Source: an uncultured Candidatus Saccharibacteria bacterium (GTDB lineage: Bacteria > Patescibacteriota > Saccharimonadia > Saccharimonadales > Saccharimonadaceae). From it: a stretch of 54,728 nt of DNA. Positions 10,645-44,135 of this stretch are shown here, in pieces. A program made the translations under genes and the position numbers. The stretch covers positions 1 through 54,728 of the forward strand of contig CAMNPZ010000005.1 of assembly GCA_946548715.1 (NCBI GenBank), in the 5' to 3' direction. Position 1 is the first letter of the stretch, and the number at the start of each line of letters is the position of its first letter. The notes beneath the pieces are model-generated. The model had not been told where the DNA came from, ran no database searches, and saw only the letters and a program-made list of their open reading frames with translations.

Positions 10645-10700
10645 GCAAGTTATGAGCTATTTATTGGGATAGATGTACTTTAACTTTGTTGGACTATTTG

Positions 10701-10760
10701 ATTGCAGAGTAGTCTCTCCGTGCCGTATGTCGGCCATTGACGGAGGAACTATTCTGCAAT
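10701..10760 (+). ncRNA. structured 5' leader hairpin
   Basis: ATTGCAGAGTAGT pairs with ACTATTCTGCAAT over 13 positions (one G-U), enclosing CTCCGT/ACGGAG and GCCG/CGGC. This gives one 60-nt hairpin about 55 nt after the expected transcription start. A cis-regulatory role is inferred. Confidence 0.6.
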
Positions 10761-10809
10761 CATATACCTAAATACACAAGTCGAGAATAAGGAGGCTCGC
10801 TACGAGGTG

Positions 10810-14331: not shown

Positions 14332-14365
14332 CGCGGTGTGCTACAATGGTAATATTAACAATTTA

Positions 14366-14467
14366 ATATCAAGAAGGAGCGAGGGAGCGGCCCGGTGACC
14401 TCCTGCCAACCTAGCACGCCAAGACGGCGAGCCAAGGTGGTAAATCCGACCAGAAAGGAAAGATATG
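14366..14467 (+). promoter_or_regulatory. SAM-I (S-box) riboswitch of metK, translational type
   Basis: The leader carries the S-box core in order: ATCAAGAAGGAGCGAGGGA, GGCCCGGTGA, CC-TGCCAACC, then GGTGGTAAATCCGACCAGAAAGGAAAGAT. P1 pairs ATATC (14366-14370) with GATAT (14462-14466). The 3' strand of P1 therefore includes the first two bases of the metK ATG (14465) and abuts the GGAAAGA ribosome-binding site. SAM binding should thus hide the start and block translation. No terminator hairpin is present. The promoter is TACAAT at 14342-14347. Confidence 0.88.
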
Positions 14468-15508
14468 TTCTATCGAACTGCGGAGAGCGTTTCTCCGAAA
14501 CACCCAGACAAATTATGTGACCAAATTAGCGATGCGATTTTGGACGCATATCTTAAAGAGGACCCAAATGCGCGCGTGGCGGCCGAGGCTTGTGGCGGAC
14601 ACGGCGTAGTATTCGTAACTGGCGAAATTACGTCGACGGCTGGCGAGGTTGACATTCCCGCCATCGTGCATCGTATCGCTGGCGATGACATGGAAGTACA
14701 CACGAAAATCGTCAAACAATCGCCCGAAATCGCTGCGGGGGTAGATACCGGCGGGGCTGGCGACCAGGGAATCATGATTGGTTATGCTTGCGATGAAACA
14801 CCGGAAATGTTGCCGCGCGAAGTGGTTTTGTCGAGAAGGCTAAATCAGTTCATTTACGAGAAACACCCGTATGATGGTAAGACCCAGGTCACGATTGCGC
14901 CAGATGGGTCGATTGATTCTATCGTAGTAAGCTTCCAAAACGTATCATCGAAGGAACTGTCCCATTTGGTGTCCGAATGGCTGGATACCGAAGGAGTCCT
15001 GGAAAAACAGCAGGTTACGATGCTATCAAAAAGAATCCTGGATGAGCCTGAGGAGTTTGAATTATTGACAAAAAATAACGATTCAATTATTGCGTATATT
15101 AACCCAGCTGGCGACTGGAATCAGGGTGGATTTGAAGCCGATACCGGCCTGACTGGTCGTAAGTTAATCGTGGATAATTACGGTCCACGCGTAGCTATTG
15201 GCGGTGGCTGTTACTCAGGCAAGGATCCGTCCAAGGTAGATCGTTCAGCGGCTTACATGGCACGCAGGATAGCAGTGGACTATCTGCGCAACCGCAAAGC
15301 ACACGAAGTACTAGTGCGACTGGCTTACGCGATTGGCTATGCTGAGCCACTAGAGAAAACCGTGATTATCGATGGTAAGCCAGAGGAAATTAATGGATAC
15401 GATTTAACCCCAAATGGCATCATTAAACATTTGAACCTGAAACGCCCGATTTACGAGGCGACCGCGCGCTACGGTCACTACGGCGAAGGATTCGACTGGG
15501 ATAAATAA
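14465..15508 (+). CDS. metK: S-adenosylmethionine synthetase
   Basis: A 347-residue MetK that makes SAM from methionine and ATP. The N-terminus has ESVSPKHPDKLCDQISDA (ATP-binding His and Asp). GAGDQGIMIGYA is the methionine-site hexapeptide region. The P-loop-like segment is GGGCYSGKDPSKVDRSAAYM. It is some 35 residues shorter than the Escherichia coli enzyme, through trimmed loops. The riboswitch upstream gives feedback by the product. It ends with a strong terminator and is monocistronic. Confidence 0.96.
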   Translation: MFYRTAESVSPKHPDKLCDQISDAILDAYLKEDPNARVAAEACGGHGVVFVTGEITSTAGEVDIPAIVHRIAGDDMEVHTKIVKQSPEIAAGVDTGGAGDQGIMIGYACDETPEMLPREVVLSRRLNQFIYEKHPYDGKTQVTIAPDGSIDSIVVSFQNVSSKELSHLVSEWLDTEGVLEKQQVTMLSKRILDEPEEFELLTKNNDSIIAYINPAGDWNQGGFEADTGLTGRKLIVDNYGPRVAIGGGCYSGKDPSKVDRSAAYMARRIAVDYLRNRKAHEVLVRLAYAIGYAEPLEKTVIIDGKPEEINGYDLTPNGIIKHLNLKRPIYEATARYGHYGEGFDWDK

Positions 15509-23385: not shown

Positions 23386-23462
23386 GGTTCCGTCGTCTAG
23401 TGGTCTAGGACGTCTGGTTCTCATCCAGAAAATCGCGGGTTCGACTCCCGCCGGAATCACCA
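23386..23462 (+). tRNA. tRNA-Glu (CTC)
   Basis: 77 nt with encoded CCA. The acceptor stem is GGTTCCG/CGGAATC (one G-U), the anticodon stem TCTGG/CCAGA holds loop TTCTCAT, so the anticodon is CTC, and the T arm is GCGGGTTCGACTCCCGC. Confidence 0.95.
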
Positions 23463-23503
23463 GAAATTAAAAGAAGACTCCAAAGGAGTCTTATTTTAAT
23501 TTC
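23463..23503 (+). terminator. tRNA-Glu terminator
   Basis: GAAATTAAAAGAAGACTCC/GGAGTCTTATTTTAATTTC, a long stem with a 3-nt loop. Confidence 0.8.
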
Positions 23504-23760
23504 TAATGGCTCTGACGGGAGGCGAACGAAGTTCGCTCGTAGTAGGAGCCGAGGAAATATCCGAAACTTGTTTTGGATATTTTGAGGCGACGCCCTACGA
23601 AAAGGATTTGCGAAGCAAATCCTTACTCCCGCCAAGACGAAGCGGGTTCGCTCGCCGAAGGCGAATAGCCGAAGCGGAGCGAAGGCTAACTCCCGCCGAA
23701 GCAAATCCTTACTCCCGCCGGAACCCACTCCCGCCGCGTCCCACCGGCCTAATCATGTCC
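23504..23760. repeat. cluster of small hairpins and repeats of the tRNA-Glu 3' end
   Basis: No gene. ACTCCCGCC occurs four times, two of them within AAATCCTTACTCCCGCC. GCGGGTTCG and ACTCCCGCCGAA match the two halves of the tRNA-Glu T arm but are separated by inserted sequence. GAA-loop hairpins include GCGAAC-GAA-GTTCGC, GGATTTGC-GAA-GCAAATCC and ATATCC...GGATAT. It looks like decayed, repeatedly duplicated tRNA 3' sequence mixed with hairpin units. Confidence 0.6.
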
Positions 23761-27412: not shown

Positions 27413-28878
27413 TGAAAAAATTACCAATCGTTGCATTAATCGGCCAGACCAATGCTGGGAAATCCAGTCTATTAAATCGGATGGCGCGCAAAAATATCGC
27501 TATCGTGGCTCGCGAGGAGGGAACTACACGCGATAACGTGGTGGCGACGATTGATAATGCTTTTATTTTGGTTGACACGGCGGGACTAAAAGACCCGAGT
27601 GATGATTTCGAGGCGTCTATTCAAGAGCAGATTCAGGATGCGATTGAATCTGCTGACATGATTCTAGTGACGCTTGATTCGTCGAAATACTTCGACCATC
27701 GGGACCGCAAGATTGCCAAGGACGCTTTGCGCTCTGGTAAGCCTGTTTTCCTAGTCTTAAACAAGTGCGACCTCGGCGAGTCCTTACCGATCGAGGAATT
27801 CCGGGCGCTTGGTATTGCACCCGAAAATATCTACTATACTTCCGCTACGACCGGGCAAGGGATAGAGAAACTTAAAGGAATGGTATTGGACGGAATAGCT
27901 GGATTTTGCTCATCGAAGGGGGTCCGGAGGCTGGCAAGCCGAGGGGTAGCGCCGGCCGCCCGTGGCGACGGGCCGGCCGGACGCGCCCCGAGAGGAGCAA
28001 AATCAGCTATTCTGTCTGAATCCACTCCACTTAAACTTGCCCTAATCGGGCGGCCGAATGTAGGGAAGTCATCGCTGTTTAATACACTTGGTAAGAAACA
28101 ACAGGCGATTGTGTCGAGTCGTCAGGGAACTACGCGCGATGTGAATCGAGTACAAGTGAAGTATAAGGGCAGAGAGCTGGAAATACTAGACACAGCGGGT
28201 TTACGCAAGCCAGGCAAACGCGAGGTAGGGATTGAGAAATTTAGCGCCATCCGCACACTGGCGGCCATAGAAGAGTCGGACGTTTGTTGTTTGTTAGTGG
28301 ATTCCACCGAGCCGCACAGTAAGCTCGACCAGTCTCTCGCAGGACAGATTGTCGAGGCAGGCAAGGGAATCATTATGGTGGTAACAAAGGCAGATTTACT
28401 AGAAAACGCCGAACCGACTAACTACTTCGGCGAGGAAAATATCGGTAATCGTACGGCGGCAGATTTCCTAATTGACCAGCTGGAGAAAGATTATGATTTT
28501 CTTCCTTATGCTCCAGTAATACTGACCTCGTCGGAGACGGGTGAGAATGTAACACAACTGTTCGAACTAGCATTACAGGTAGATGAGGCACGTCACACTG
28601 AAGTTAAAACAGCCGAGCTTAATAAGATTTTAAACGAGGCCATCGTCTCTCACCCGCCAGCAGGACTCAAAAACACCCGACCGAAACCAAAATACATCGT
28701 ACAAACCGACACCTGCCCGCCGTGGTTCGTGGTGCACGGGCACGATTTGGGATTACTGCACTGGTCATGGAAACGATTCTTGGAGCGCAAAATTCGCGAA
28801 AAATACCCCTTCATTGGTACGCCAATTATGTTTTCTTACCGAAGCGATAACAGAGATAAAATTGACAAAAAAGCTTAA
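27412..28878 (+). CDS. der: ribosome-associated GTPase Der (EngA) with in-frame palindromic insertion
   Basis: A 488-residue tandem GTPase needed for 50S assembly. The first G domain has GQTNAGKSSL (Ala where Val is usual), DTAG and NKCD. The second has GRPNVGKSSLFN, DTAGLRKPGKR and TKAD. The C-terminal KH-like domain is present. Between the two G domains, about residues 168-196, lies an Ala/Gly/Arg/Pro-rich insertion encoded by a GC-rich palindrome (27913-27998). It is in frame and sits in the linker, so both G domains remain intact. I start at ATG 27412 because the -10 box ends 6 nt upstream; ATG 27406 is possible. Confidence 0.95.
   Translation: MKKLPIVALIGQTNAGKSSLLNRMARKNIAIVAREEGTTRDNVVATIDNAFILVDTAGLKDPSDDFEASIQEQIQDAIESADMILVTLDSSKYFDHRDRKIAKDALRSGKPVFLVLNKCDLGESLPIEEFRALGIAPENIYYTSATTGQGIEKLKGMVLDGIAGFCSSKGVRRLASRGVAPAARGDGPAGRAPRGAKSAILSESTPLKLALIGRPNVGKSSLFNTLGKKQQAIVSSRQGTTRDVNRVQVKYKGRELEILDTAGLRKPGKREVGIEKFSAIRTLAAIEESDVCCLLVDSTEPHSKLDQSLAGQIVEAGKGIIMVVTKADLLENAEPTNYFGEENIGNRTAADFLIDQLEKDYDFLPYAPVILTSSETGENVTQLFELALQVDEARHTEVKTAELNKILNEAIVSHPPAGLKNTRPKPKYIVQTDTCPPWFVVHGHDLGLLHWSWKRFLERKIREKYPFIGTPIMFSYRSDNRDKIDKKA
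27893..28012. mobile_element. palindromic element family A, copy in der
   Basis: The core 27913-27994 is GC-rich with stem CCGGCC-GCCCGT-GGCG-ACGGGC-C-GGCCGG (27952-27980). Outer arms GAATAGCTGGATTTTGCTC (27893-27911) and its near-perfect inverse (27995-28012, one base shorter) are specific to this locus. It reads through on the same strand as the ftsQ-like copy. Confidence 0.8.
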
Positions 28879-32942: not shown

Positions 32943-35500
32943 TGGCAAAAAATTTGGTAATAGTAGAGAGCCCAGCGAAAGCGCATACGATCGAGAAGTA
33001 TCTCGGGCCGGATTTTAAGGTGTTGGCTTCGGTCGGACATATTCGCAAGGACACGAAAGTAGATAAGGCGACATTTGATGTAACGTATGAGATTGATCCG
33101 GGACACAAGTCGATTATTGCCGAATTAAAGAGTGAAGCTAAAAAAGCTGACAAAATCTGGCTCGCAACCGATGAAGACCGCGAAGGAGAGTCGATTTCGT
33201 GGCATCTTTGCGAGGTGTTGCAGTTACCGAAGAATACGGCGCGAATCACTTTTCATGAAATTACAAAACCAGCACTCGAGAATGCGATCAAAAACCCACG
33301 CACGGTGGATATGGACATGGTCTCATCGCAGCAGGCACGGCAAACTCTAGATATGTTAGTAGGATATGATTTATCAGATATGGTGCGCAAAAAGGTGCCC
33401 GGAGCGATTTCAGCGGGGCGCGTACAGTCGCCGGCGCTCAGATTAATCGTAGAGCGAGAAAAAGAAATCGAGAAGTTCGATTCCAAGTTTAACTTCAAGA
33501 TTACTGGTGAATTCGCTGCCAGCAGTGTAAAATCAGGTGCTTCTCGGGACGCTTCGTCGCGCCCGTCGTTACGGGGCTCCTCGCTCACTCGCTCCCCGTT
33601 GGTCGCGCAAGCCCTCGAAACACCTGATTCTTACACTGCCGAAAGCACCACATTCACAGCCAACTACGACGGTAAAGCTCCTGAAACCGAAGACGAAGCG
33701 AACAAACTACTCGAATTATTGTCACAGTCGGACTTTGAGGTGGAAGATGTTGAAGAAACGGAAGGAACGAAGGCAAATCCAGTACCGTTCACGACTGCGG
33801 CTTTGCAAATTGAGGCTAATAGTAAACTAGGGTTCGCATCGCGCACTACGATGAGTGCAGCACAAGGACTGTACCAGGCTGGCTTGATTACTTACCACAG
33901 AACCGATTCACTCAATTTGTCCTCGCAGGCGGTTGGGGCGATTGCGAGGTATATCGAAGAAACATTTGGGAAGAATTACTTAAAGGTACGGCATTTCAAA
34001 ACCAAGGATGCTTCAGCCCAGGAGGCGCACGAGGCAATCCGTCCAACTGATGTTTTTCGAACTAAGGCAGGGAAGAATGATTACGAAAAACGGCTTTATC
34101 AATTGATCTGGTCTCGTACTGTGGCTACTCAAATGGCCAATGCAAAAGTCGCCAAAACTACGATTCGCCTTACCGCAAAGGAGCTCGAAATGGCTTCTCT
34201 CGGGGCGCGTCCAGCCGGCCCGTCGCCACGGGCGGCTGGCGCTACCCCTCGCGCTGCCGCGCTCCGGACCCCCTTCGATAAGCCATCTTCAAGCTCCTTT
34301 GTCGCTAAAGGCGAAGTTGTAGTTTTTGATGGATTTTTGAGGGTTTATGGGAAGTCGAAGGACTTGGAGTTACCGAAGGTAGCAAAAGGCGACAAGATGG
34401 ATTGCTTAGAGCTAACTGCGAAACAGACTTACGGCAAACCGCCGGCAAGATACACTGAAGGGTCTCTGGTAAAGAAGCTGGAAGAGCTTGGAATTGGCCG
34501 TCCGTCGACTTACGCATCGATTATGACAGCGATTCAGGCCAGAAAATACGTTGAAAAAGGCGAATCCGAAGGAACTGAACGCGACGTAATAGAATTAAAG
34601 GCTACAAAAGGTCAAGTCTCACGTAGTACCGTAAAAGAAAAATACGGTGCCAATAAGGGACGTCTCGTACCGACGCCAATCGGCGAGCTAGTTAGCGGAT
34701 TTTTGACAGACAACTTCAAGAGTATCGTCGATTACAAGTTTACAGCAAACATCGAGAAGGATTTGGACCTGGTGGCAGAGGCGAAATTAGAGCGCGTCAA
34801 GATGCTCCGAGATTTCTATGGGCCATTTCACGATACAGTACTAGCCGCCAACGGTGTAGAGCGTTATAATAATGCACGTTTGCTAGGACATCATCCGGAG
34901 AACGGAAAACCAATTTATGCCAAAGTAGGCAAAACTGGTGGCTTTATCCAGCTAGGTGATAACGAGAAGGAGGCTGGCGAAAAACCGGTATTCGCACCGC
35001 TTCCTAAGCGAAAATCAGTGAAAACGGTAACTTTGGAACAGGCACTGAAGCAGTTGGCCTTACCATCACTGCCGCGTTCGCTAGGCAACGCGCCCGATGG
35101 GACCGAGTTAATTGCCGCTAATGGGCCGTTTGGACCATATCTTAAGGGTGGCAAATACAATGTACCAATGAAAGATTTAGATCCATACACGGTGACTCTA
35201 GCGGAGGCTTTGCCTTTGTACCAGAAAAAAATCGATTCAATGATTGCCGATTGGGATGACATCCAGATCATTAACGGCGCTTATGGACCATACGTGAAGG
35301 GACCTGGTCGACGCAACAATGTCAAAATTCCGAAGGAGATGGACCCGAAGAAGATTACCAAAGAAGAAGCGCTCAAAATGCTCGAAAACAAGCCAAAAAC
35401 TACTCGACGCGGCGTGCGTGGTGGACGTAAGAAGACCACCAAGACAGCCAATAAGAAGGCAGCCAAGAAGACCACGACAAAGAAGAAAACTAGTACATAG
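32942..35500 (+). CDS. topA: DNA topoisomerase I with two in-frame palindromic insertions
   Basis: An 852-residue type IA topoisomerase that relaxes negative supercoils. The Toprim domain has NLVIVESPAKA (Glu9) and ATDEDREGE. The active-site Tyr318 is in GLITYHRTDS. C-terminal repeats of the FGPYLKGG / YGPYVKGP type replace zinc ribbons, and the tail is Lys-rich (KKTTTKKKTST). Two foreign-looking stretches are in frame: about residues 200-223 (ASRDASSRPSLRG...) and about 420-447 (GARPAGPSPRAAGATPR...). Both lie in loops of the cleavage and hinge domains, and all catalytic motifs are intact. Confidence 0.95.
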   Translation: MAKNLVIVESPAKAHTIEKYLGPDFKVLASVGHIRKDTKVDKATFDVTYEIDPGHKSIIAELKSEAKKADKIWLATDEDREGESISWHLCEVLQLPKNTARITFHEITKPALENAIKNPRTVDMDMVSSQQARQTLDMLVGYDLSDMVRKKVPGAISAGRVQSPALRLIVEREKEIEKFDSKFNFKITGEFAASSVKSGASRDASSRPSLRGSSLTRSPLVAQALETPDSYTAESTTFTANYDGKAPETEDEANKLLELLSQSDFEVEDVEETEGTKANPVPFTTAALQIEANSKLGFASRTTMSAAQGLYQAGLITYHRTDSLNLSSQAVGAIARYIEETFGKNYLKVRHFKTKDASAQEAHEAIRPTDVFRTKAGKNDYEKRLYQLIWSRTVATQMANAKVAKTTIRLTAKELEMASLGARPAGPSPRAAGATPRAAALRTPFDKPSSSSFVAKGEVVVFDGFLRVYGKSKDLELPKVAKGDKMDCLELTAKQTYGKPPARYTEGSLVKKLEELGIGRPSTYASIMTAIQARKYVEKGESEGTERDVIELKATKGQVSRSTVKEKYGANKGRLVPTPIGELVSGFLTDNFKSIVDYKFTANIEKDLDLVAEAKLERVKMLRDFYGPFHDTVLAANGVERYNNARLLGHHPENGKPIYAKVGKTGGFIQLGDNEKEAGEKPVFAPLPKRKSVKTVTLEQALKQLALPSLPRSLGNAPDGTELIAANGPFGPYLKGGKYNVPMKDLDPYTVTLAEALPLYQKKIDSMIADWDDIQIINGAYGPYVKGPGRRNNVKIPKEMDPKKITKEEALKMLENKPKTTRRGVRGGRKKTTKTANKKAAKKTTTKKKTST
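33522..33639. mobile_element. palindromic element family B, copy in topA
   Basis: The core contains CGCGCCCGTCGTTACGGGGC (33558-33577), shared with the copy at 46382. Locus-specific arms are GCAGTGTAAAATCAGGTG (33522-33539) and its inverse at 33621-33639, one extra base. In frame in topA. Confidence 0.75.
34178..34300. mobile_element. palindromic element family A, copy in topA
   Basis: Inserted opposite in reading strand to the der copy. Stem CCAGCC-G-GCCCGT-CGCC-ACGGGC-GGCTGG (34211-34239). The arms AAAGGAGCTCGAAATGGCTT (34177-34196) and inverse (34280-34300) differ by one base and one indel. No stop on either used strand. Confidence 0.8.
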
Positions 35501-39836: not shown

Positions 39837-39956
39837 GCTGAAGTCTGGATTGCGATTTTAGCATAAGCTTAATGTCGCACAATATAGATTTTAAGACATA
39901 AGCACTTTGGATTTTAGACGGTTAAGTTATCGTCTAATATAGGCAAATAATGTTGG

Positions 39957-40191
39957 GCGGGCGGGAATTAGTGTCTGTGAGGGCTTTCTAACAGTCCGTT
40001 CGCGATGACTTCGCGCCATGCTAGTTTTTACAACGTTTCACTCAATCCTCGCCTCGATCAAGTTATCAGACTCGCTTCGCGAATCTGTAACTTTACTCGT
40101 CTCGGATGAGGAAAAGTTGTAAAAACCACCTGGGCTCGTCACATGCTCACGGACTCATCAGAAAGCCTCCACAGGCAACAATCCTCGCCCG
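39957..40191. mobile_element. ~235-bp near full-length palindrome (MITE-like or structured RNA)
   Basis: The outer arms GCGGGCGGGAATT and AATCCTCGCCCGC pair. Further in, GTGAGGGCTTTCT pairs with AGAAAGCCTCCAC, AGTCCGT with ACGGACT, and GTTTTTACAAC with GTTGTAAAAAC. The centre is AAGTTATCAGACTCGC-TTC-GCGAATCTGTAACTT. About three quarters of positions pair over the full length. No ORF crosses it. Confidence 0.75.
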
Positions 40192-40523
40192 CTAAATTCT
40201 GTAGGATTCACAACTATCCGGGTCCTTCTATGCCTTTATATTGGCTTGGTTAGCCGTCACCTCTGTTAGACGTTTGTCTTGATCGGATTTTTGTTGGATT
40301 TTTGGCTAAAATTTGCAGATTTGACGTTTCCCCGTTTTGTTTCCTTTTTTTCGTGTTTCCCTGTTATTTTGGCTGGTTCTGCCCTGGTCGATGTTTTGTA
40401 ACTGTTTTATGTCTGAACAAAAACCGAACATAAACAGGGTATTACCGAAAGCGTTTTTACAGGGGTAGACCCCTGTAATGCTATAATGGTTTGTTTTTTG
40501 CCATTGTCGTCCGCAGGAGAAGC
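40192..40523. other. intergenic stretch without a supported gene
   Basis: T-rich sequence with no supported gene. It has CTGAACA (40413) and CCGAACA (40424) 11 bp apart, matching the repeat at 50455-50541. A hairpin CAGGGG-TAGA-CCCCTG (about 40459-40475) precedes a plus-strand TATAAT at 40482-40487 that serves no visible plus-strand gene. Confidence 0.5.
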
Positions 40524-42220: not shown

Positions 42221-42901
42221 TTATTTCCAGAAGGCGCGGCCGTCGACGCGGACGTCGACGTATTCGAAGGTAGTGATTCCCTGTCCCGCTAGATAACGGA
42301 GCATGCGGTCGATGTCTTCGGCAGTGATGGCGGCGTCGCGGTCGATGGTGGTTTTAAAATAACCCGTGTAACCGTCGAGATAGAGGTCGACTTCGCGAAT
42401 AGAGTCGGTTGGGATAACAGCTTTGATGGGTTGGTAGCTGTATGATTTGAGGTCGGACTCGATGAGGCCGATGTAGTTTCGCATCCGTGAAGTGATTTTG
42501 CCGCCGGTGGCAGAGGCGGAAGCGTCGATGATTTCGATGGTGGGCTCGGCGGTAAGAATTGGTTCGGGGGCGACTTCTTCTGGCGATAGTGGTTCGACTT
42601 CTTGGTGAAGAAAAGTAGTAGCAAGCACAATCAAGATAACTATTAGGCTCACGAAACCGAGGCTAACAGAAACTACTCGTGTAAGGTATCTCTGTTTATC
42701 TTTCTTGCGCGCTGCGGCGCGTTCGTTCTTAGTCTCGAGCTTTTCCCTTTTGGCGCCAATAGTGAGGCCTACAACAACCTGGGAAGAGCGTCTACTAAAC
42801 TTCGGGGCGCGTCCGGCCGGCCCATCGCCATGGGCGGCCGGCGCTACCTCTCGCGCTGCCGCGCTCCGAACCCCCTCGTTTTTAGTAGACTCTCTTCCCA
42901 C
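42221..42901 (-). CDS. FtsQ/DivIB-like division protein with N-terminal palindromic insertion
   Basis: A 226-residue protein with a cytoplasmic N-terminus, one membrane helix (near residues 73-95, VVSVSLGFVSLIVILIVLA) and an extracellular domain. Length, topology and place after murG fit FtsQ/DivIB, but I see no clear POTRA signature, so the name is by context. GTG 42901 follows GGGGAGG in the end of murG. Residues about 9-34 come from a GC-rich palindrome. The left arm of that palindrome, in gene direction, encodes the start itself. The protein normally joins FtsL and FtsB in the divisome. Confidence 0.65.
   Translation of the reverse strand: MGRESTKNEGVRSAAAREVAPAAHGDGPAGRAPKFSRRSSQVVVGLTIGAKREKLETKNERAAARKKDKQRYLTRVVSVSLGFVSLIVILIVLATTFLHQEVEPLSPEEVAPEPILTAEPTIEIIDASASATGGKITSRMRNYIGLIESDLKSYSYQPIKAVIPTDSIREVDLYLDGYTGYFKTTIDRDAAITAEDIDRMLRYLAGQGITTFEYVDVRVDGRAFWK
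42781..42899. mobile_element. palindromic element family A, copy in the ftsQ-like gene
   Basis: Stem CCGGCC-G-GCCCAT-CGCC-ATGGGC-GGCCGG (42813-42841). The arms GGGAAGAGCGTCTACTAAA (42781-42799) and inverse (42881-42899) match at 18 of 19 positions and are unrelated to the arms of the other copies. Confidence 0.8.
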
Positions 42902-42908
42902 CTTCTTC

Positions 42909-44135
42909 TTAGACCTCCCCTAAGATTATTTCGGCGAGGCGGCGGGCGGAGTCAGAACGAGCTTCTTCGTGGAGCTTGTCGGCCATGTTGGCCCGGAGGC
43001 GAGGAGACCTGATGAGGTGACGGATTTCATCAAGGAGAATGGTCGGATCTTGCACCATGTCATAATCTTTGACTACCGAGATAGCGTCAACCGCCGCGAG
43101 ACGTTCAGCGTTCTTGACCTGGTGTCCGCCAGGTAGCGGTGCGAATGGAACTAGAATAACTGCCTTCTTGAGCGAGGCTAATTCGGCAATAGTGGTGGCG
43201 CCAGCACGCGAAACAATAATATCGGCGGCGCCCATGAGTTCGTTCATAGTAGTATTAAACTCCCACATACGGAAATTCGACTCTAGCGAGGCGTGATCCC
43301 AGTTTTCGTATTGTTTCAAATCAACCATGTTTTCATAGTGTTTGCGTCCAGCAACTAGACCTACAGAGGTGAATTTGAGGAGTTCTGGCAAGATAGCGCG
43401 CGTGGCTTCGTTGAGGTTTTCGGAGCCTTGTGAGCCGCCCGTAACCACGACGAGTGGTTTGTCTGGATTGAATGAAAAGGCTTTTTTAAGTTCAAGTTGC
43501 TTGGAGGGGCTGACGGATTTGAATTCTGGTCCGACCGGAATGCCGGTCCAGACATAATTAGGATGCTGTGCTTGTAAATCATCTGGGATAGGCATGCCAA
43601 AAGCAACTTTGGCGGCTTTTTTCATGAGAATACGATTAGCAAGGCCCGCTACGACGTCCGACTCGTGGATAATGTAAGGGATTTTGAAAAGCTTTGCCAT
43701 AATGCCGACTGGTAGGCAGACGTAGCCACCTTTTAGAAAAATAACATTGGGGCGCGAAGATTTCTTGACGAGACGGCAAAAGGCCGTAACGAGCCCCATC
43801 AGGAAGCCAAAAAAACCTAAGATGTTGCCCAAGATGATATCTTTTAATGTAAGTCCAAAATGGATGAAGTAGTCCTTGAGTTTCCAATTAGCATAGCGAT
43901 GAAACTTGCCGGCCGGGATGCGGCGCACTCGAATGTATGGAGTGTTCCTGTGGCTAGCTTCTTCGCCCCAGGCTACTCCTATTTCGGTGGTGAGACGAGT
44001 GACGTTTTTGTAATATTTAAAATCAGTCCAAAATTCAACCTCAGCACGAGGTTTGCGATTTAGAATTTCACGCACTACGGCGACGACTGGCGTGATGTGT
44101 CCCCCCGACCCGCCGCCGACTACTAATATTTTCAT
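42909..44135 (-). CDS. murG: UDP-GlcNAc:lipid II transferase MurG
   Basis: A 408-residue GT-B enzyme that adds GlcNAc to lipid I to give lipid II. The N-terminal GGGSGGHITPV loop is the lipid-substrate site. GGSQGSENLNEA, ISRAGATTIAEL-like SRAGATTIAELASL and PLPGGHQVKNA build the nucleotide-sugar site. It is longer than usual (about 350-370) through inserts around residues 55-120. GGGAGG lies upstream of ATG 44135 inside ftsW, whose end it overlaps by 68 nt. It belongs to the mraY-ftsW-murG transcript. Confidence 0.93.
   Translation of the reverse strand: MKILVVGGGSGGHITPVVAVVREILNRKPRAEVEFWTDFKYYKNVTRLTTEIGVAWGEEASHRNTPYIRVRRIPAGKFHRYANWKLKDYFIHFGLTLKDIILGNILGFFGFLMGLVTAFCRLVKKSSRPNVIFLKGGYVCLPVGIMAKLFKIPYIIHESDVVAGLANRILMKKAAKVAFGMPIPDDLQAQHPNYVWTGIPVGPEFKSVSPSKQLELKKAFSFNPDKPLVVVTGGSQGSENLNEATRAILPELLKFTSVGLVAGRKHYENMVDLKQYENWDHASLESNFRMWEFNTTMNELMGAADIIVSRAGATTIAELASLKKAVILVPFAPLPGGHQVKNAERLAAVDAISVVKDYDMVQDPTILLDEIRHLIRSPRLRANMADKLHEEARSDSARRLAEIILGEV

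Follow-up and report, generated by a model that had tools for sequence, protein, structure and literature searches.

The ends of known bacterial transposable repeats belong to the repeat itself, and direct target duplications are the usual trace of their insertion. To our knowledge, no bacterial repeat family has been reported with site-specific mirror-image arms copied from adjacent DNA, and the open-access literature contained no report of such elements in Saccharibacteria. Among the closest described systems, the Rickettsia palindromic elements (RPEs) comprise ten families, with 44 insertions in R. conorii (PMC10969869), and are cited as losing their repeat identity with time (PMC6649704). 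Nematomorpha mitochondria have coding palindromes whose locus-specific arms stay matched as the sequence changes between species, for which template switching has been proposed (PMC6649704). Within a single replication event, quasipalindrome correction, or template switching, gives rise to perfect inverted repeats and preserves them (PMC7202029, PMC8794818).

Here, we describe a palindrome from a very small gut Saccharibacteria genome (the target) together with its relatives. Like RPEs, these are palindromic repeats of approximately 100 to 150 bp, belonging to several unrelated families in a small-genome bacterium, and many RPEs lie in frame inside protein genes, as does a short GC-rich family here. 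The target, however, is intergenic with only short ORFs, and neither PMC10969869 nor PMC6649704 reports flank-derived copy-specific arms. The Nematomorpha palindromes share the locus-specific inverted arms that are kept matched, but as described they are mitochondrial, consist mostly of perfect repeats, and have no conserved mobile core at their centre. Template-switch mutation accounts for concerted change of both arms, but it is a process without a mobile element, while here it would apparently be coupled to insertion of a repeated core. REP/REPIN-RAYT (Y1) repeats and MITEs are likewise short, multi-copy, palindromic, intergenic bacterial repeats; they differ in that the Y1 transposase is absent from this genome (G000) and in that the ends of the present elements are not shared between copies. 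We consider it reasonably probable that the target represents one copy of a DNA hairpin that is mobile but non-autonomous, with arms written by snap-back or template-switch synthesis from flanking DNA.

A palindrome of two layers

The window, i.e., the whole 54,728-nucleotide stretch of DNA that was analysed, contains the target as two layers: a conserved inner core, and an outer inverted repeat without counterpart in other copies.

39957..40192, no strand assigned: whole palindrome (left arm, core and right arm), with a 3-nt loop at 40076-40078
39957..39999, plus strand: left copy-specific arm; its first bases, GCGGGCGGGAATTA, include the native motif GGCGGGAATTA
40000..40148, minus strand: long-family hairpin core, conserved and 149 nt long (covariance model R1, 168.5 bits)
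40149..40192, minus strand: right copy-specific arm, an inverted copy of the left arm

The first-pass annotation had described a 235-bp near full-length palindrome at 39957-40191, lacking an ORF and following a T4SS-like ATPase gene. This description holds, with the true end one base later, and the paired blocks that it quoted are found in the sequence. The palindrome is imperfect: its halves (39957-40075 and 40079-40192) contain small bulges, and the target matches its own reverse complement at approximately 71% over 235 nt. It lies 184 bp 3' of a 1011-aa TraG/VirD4-like ATPase ORF, and no ORF above 36 aa overlaps it. The predicted MFE is -104.2 kcal/mol (dinucleotide shuffles, -59.6 +/- 4.7; z -9.5), and the gapped self-complement score is 56 compared to a maximum of 24 anywhere in the shuffled window, so that the palindrome is not due to chance. 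A scan for intrinsic terminators (a GC-rich stem with a T run directly after it) gave no site at the palindrome, and a terminator role was rejected because the T run is absent.

Distribution and spread of the core

That the element might be present as a single copy had been named earlier as a reason to dismiss it, but a search of the same genome (approximately 782 kb) gave three more copies of the target core, at C12:7664 (94%), C20:9711 (90%), and C9:15610 (86%). With the covariance model, the core was matched in 67 of 174 congeneric genomes, with approximately 60 strong copies; at the loci examined, these long-family copies lie between genes. A DNA search of 25 other genera of the order did not find the core. 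The exact core pattern matched 28 stretches among GTDB contigs, all from Candidatus Saccharibacteria and mostly from ruminant gut, and gave no match in viral contigs.

Fifteen well-aligned cores fold as one hairpin, in which the same asymmetric one-sided bulges are kept, and across these copies 12 of 32 core pairs show changes on both sides. The nearest core was found at another locus of the same genome for 20 copies and at the same locus in another species for 7, indicating within-genome spread of the core.

Arms are specific to each copy

Own-arm pairing scores reach at least 24 in 54 of 55 copies (median 38). When the left arm of one copy was paired with the right arm of another, the median dropped to 10, and only 4 of 647 such combinations reached 24. 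Young-looking copies have perfect arms of approximately 18 to 23 bp. Two copies within a single genome (L146 and L147, both in G153) have cores that are 97% identical but unrelated arms, which argues that arms are made locally; slow drift of the arms as part of the element was rejected on this basis. Arms travelling with the element were rejected as well, as similar arms nearly always share the same flanks, with one weak exception (L179 versus L015).

A flank comparison showed that many loci are filled in several species, in 12 groups, one of which consists of three copies in a single genome. For 29 of 34 copies at shared loci, self-pairing scores higher than pairing with the arm of any other species at that locus; the remaining cases involve near-identical species or a tie. 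Upstream of adk, G000 and G060 both have a copy with perfect arms, yet the arms differ between the two on both sides, which implies a joint change of both arms or two separate fillings of the site. Arms that differ together between species, with complementarity kept, are thus seen in the adk-upstream copy and in the 29 self-pairing copies, although self-pairing at shared loci may also reflect independent re-insertion at the same locus.

These data bear on the suggestion that the target is MITE-like. In a conventional MITE, a transposase would mobilise a pair of transposon ends and produce direct target duplications, and the arms would be old terminal repeats that have diverged between copies. 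The target family is indeed short, multi-copy, non-coding, palindromic, and spreading within genomes, and that part of the suggestion stands. However, MITE terminal repeats are shared between copies, whereas in this family each site has ends of its own around a conserved core (own-arm versus cross-copy medians of 38 and 10). Moreover, no transposase partner was found in a search confined to the Y1 class: Y1 transposase (PF01797, TnpA_REP) is absent from G000 and above the cut-off in only 7 of 170 congeners, and was rejected as the mobiliser for being absent here and rare in the genus. We therefore regard a conventional MITE as quite unlikely.

Short GC-rich elements inside genes

Unrelated GC-rich cores inside genes of the window behave like the long family. 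The genome contains approximately 20 copies of the short GC-rich family, of which most lie within genes and nearly all have unique arms.

27877..28028, minus strand: short-family element with unique inverted arms, within an open frame
33522..33639, plus strand: another arm-bearing palindromic insertion in topA, in frame and absent from G060
34154..34326, plus strand: short GC-rich element in topA whose inverted arms are unique; it is translated through in frame and lacking from most orthologs
42764..42917, minus strand: short-family element at the murG/ftsQ junction, shared with G060

The proposal that the target is a larger form of the arm-duplicating elements is supported: it shares with the short elements of topA and ftsQ a conserved core with copy-specific inverted arms. 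Both topA insertions are missing from most orthologs. The two TopA loops are hot spots for insertion, with unrelated in-frame palindromic insertions at the same positions in other species (L047, L049, and L050). At the murG/ftsQ element, the right arm overlaps the murG 3' end, and the ftsQ-side arm is therefore the likely copy.

By hand counts, the net extra length is 105 nt in uvrB, 99 nt in dnaX, 144 nt in priA, 102 nt in trmD, 87 nt in pepN, and 117 and 120 nt in topA. All seven values are multiples of three, as tolerance of in-frame insertion demands. Such cases show how, in reduced genomes, an inserted hairpin or the inverted copy of a gene end turns into protein sequence (topA, dnaX, uvrB, and trmD). 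The length gained beyond the element itself, also counted by hand, ranges from approximately 2 to 62 nt, i.e., from about zero to two arm lengths, and this variability speaks for replication-like copying over duplication of a fixed length.

Empty sites and the source of the arms

For comparisons of empty and filled sites, one genome per species was used, the nearest relative being approximately 80% to 90% identical. The clearest case is the tsaE-tsaB junction, which is empty in nine relatives (35 to 41 nt in eight, 88 nt in one) and contains no palindrome there. In the filled genome, G153, homology links the left arm (AGAAGTGTAAAACCTA...) to the native C-terminal coding sequence with which tsaE ends in relatives that are empty here; the right arm repeats the left one in inverted orientation. 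At the folA-glyA junction, self-complementarity is 15 to 20 in empty relatives, again without a palindrome, compared to 59 when filled, and in the G018 copy the folA stop region lies inside the left arm. Native gene ends or promoters are found inside one arm. At folA-glyA in G165 and at priA, both arms seem new, so copying of one flank fails to cover all cases. Inverted arms dominate at these comparisons, although the divergence leaves room for very short direct duplications.

A different explanation is that the core inserts into the loop of pre-existing palindromes, e.g., terminators, with arms that are older than the element. Several short-family sites lend this some support, since at priA (ATGTTCGGT..ACCGAACAT), trmD, uvrC, and topA partial complementarity between the outer flanks is already seen in empty relatives, and a preference for quasi-palindromic targets may contribute at several of these coding sites. 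The tsaE and folA-glyA empty sites, being free of palindromes, largely refute it at those two loci; coding ends and promoters lie in the arms, and at most short-family sites the element by itself does not account for the full gain in length over the empty site. As a general account, insertion into older palindromes is in our judgement unlikely.

The target locus beside a dif-like site

The target lies downstream of a site resembling the recombination sites of Xer.

39872..39902, plus strand: dif-like (Xer recombination site-like) motif AATGTCGCACAATATAGATTTTAAGACAT, identified as dif by resemblance

Of 20 congeners, 18 have a single match to this motif, the form in relatives being AATGTCGCACAATRYATATTTTACGACATT; in G104, it occurs twice, 178 bp apart. 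The GC skew, examined for signs of a replication terminus at the dif-like site, drops to about zero, with no clear sign change within the window. Most syntenic relatives have some palindrome beside the dif-like site, drawn from several unrelated families.

The native motif GGCGGGAATTA is also present beside the dif-like site in relatives without the target element. A downstream inverted copy of this motif is significant in the target (p 0.003), in L091 and L092 (p 0.003), and in L086 (p 0.010), but not in L078, L087, L088, L090, or L095. At the target locus, L092 has a different core and L091 a strongly diverged one, suggesting that arm copying does not depend on one core. G060 has kept the left arm and the left edge, after which a different hairpin takes the place of part of the core, so that the target has no clean empty site. 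For the dif-locus copy of G156, G104 was considered as an empty site and dropped as too diverged. Downstream of the target (window 40300-40470), conserved non-coding blocks (TTTGACRTTTCCCCGTTTTATTTCCCTTTTT and CCGAACAAAAACCGAACA) are present in 14 genomes, and these are possibly linked to the dif-like site.

Pairing at the DNA or the RNA level

If arm pairing were kept for RNA, G-U should dominate the departures from perfect pairing. Arm mismatches in the short family on coding strands are G-T in 19 cases, A-C in 13, and other in 36; in the long family, the numbers are 43, 33, and 80. No clear excess of G-U over A-C is seen in either family, so the pairing looks to be at the DNA level, and maintenance in DNA is the simpler reading.

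This weighs against the possibility that selection maintains the entire hairpin with its arms as an RNA structure (e.g., for processing, termination or mRNA protection), the arms covarying by compensatory mutation. The strong predicted fold, the both-side changes in 12 of 32 core pairs, and the filling of the same loci in several species would all agree with it. However, cores that are 97% identical bear unrelated arms, unrelated cores behave alike, and in many congeners the hairpin is not kept at its locus. Rfam covariance models gave no match at the target, and a scan of the target region found no sigma-70-like promoter. The earlier proposal of a long hairpin RNA is not supported, and we judge selection on an RNA structure to be improbable.

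Proposed mechanism

The reading that we prefer, a mobile hairpin with locally written arms, draws its direct support from the multi-copy core, the locus-specific arms, near-identical cores with unrelated arms, the native gene ends or promoters within one arm, palindrome-free empty sites, and the lack of a clear G-U bias. An imperfect hairpin core of approximately 150 nt would be inserted at many loci, moved either by some recombinase or through errors of replication. At each locus, an inverted arm of approximately 18 to 45 bp would lengthen the hairpin on either side, one arm being local flanking DNA, at least in its outer part, and the other its inverted copy. We infer that the 3' end of the folded core primes synthesis and is extended by a polymerase on its own flank; the extension would then rejoin the downstream flank, often at a pre-existing short stretch of complementarity. 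Continued correction of the arms by the same process could keep them paired while their sequence drifts. Template switching at the arms is, in this scheme, deduced from sequence comparison.

More tentatively, the elements may represent a class of mobile hairpins that insert via an inverted copy of the target flank, i.e., an inverted target-site duplication, with several unrelated core families in one Saccharibacteria genus and a dedicated putative enzyme. We consider this broader proposal possible but doubtful.

If our preferred reading is correct, the ends of a repeat are rewritten at each site from local DNA, which would be a different way of inserting DNA, each copy becoming a near-perfect hairpin with its surroundings. 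The elements would also constitute a natural, large-scale record of bacterial template switching, with dozens of sites in many species and the cores as internal clocks.

Other structured sequences

Several further hairpins were observed. At window 23439-23527, a hairpin with a 3-nt loop and 43-nt arms (81%) consists of the 3' part of a tRNA gene (23386-23459) and, after it, an inverted copy of that part; no element core lies between these arms. At window 10695-10766, an 18-nt loop separates the 27-nt arms of another hairpin (GCCGTATGTCGGCCATTG). Elsewhere in the genome, at positions 1340-1453 of L006 (G000:C9), inverted arms that are long and unique enclose a short GC-rich loop (CCCAGCCCGAAGGGCGAATAA), and this hairpin adjoins a fragment of the long-family core end. 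Finally, a SAM riboswitch (RF00162) is present at window 14363-14469.
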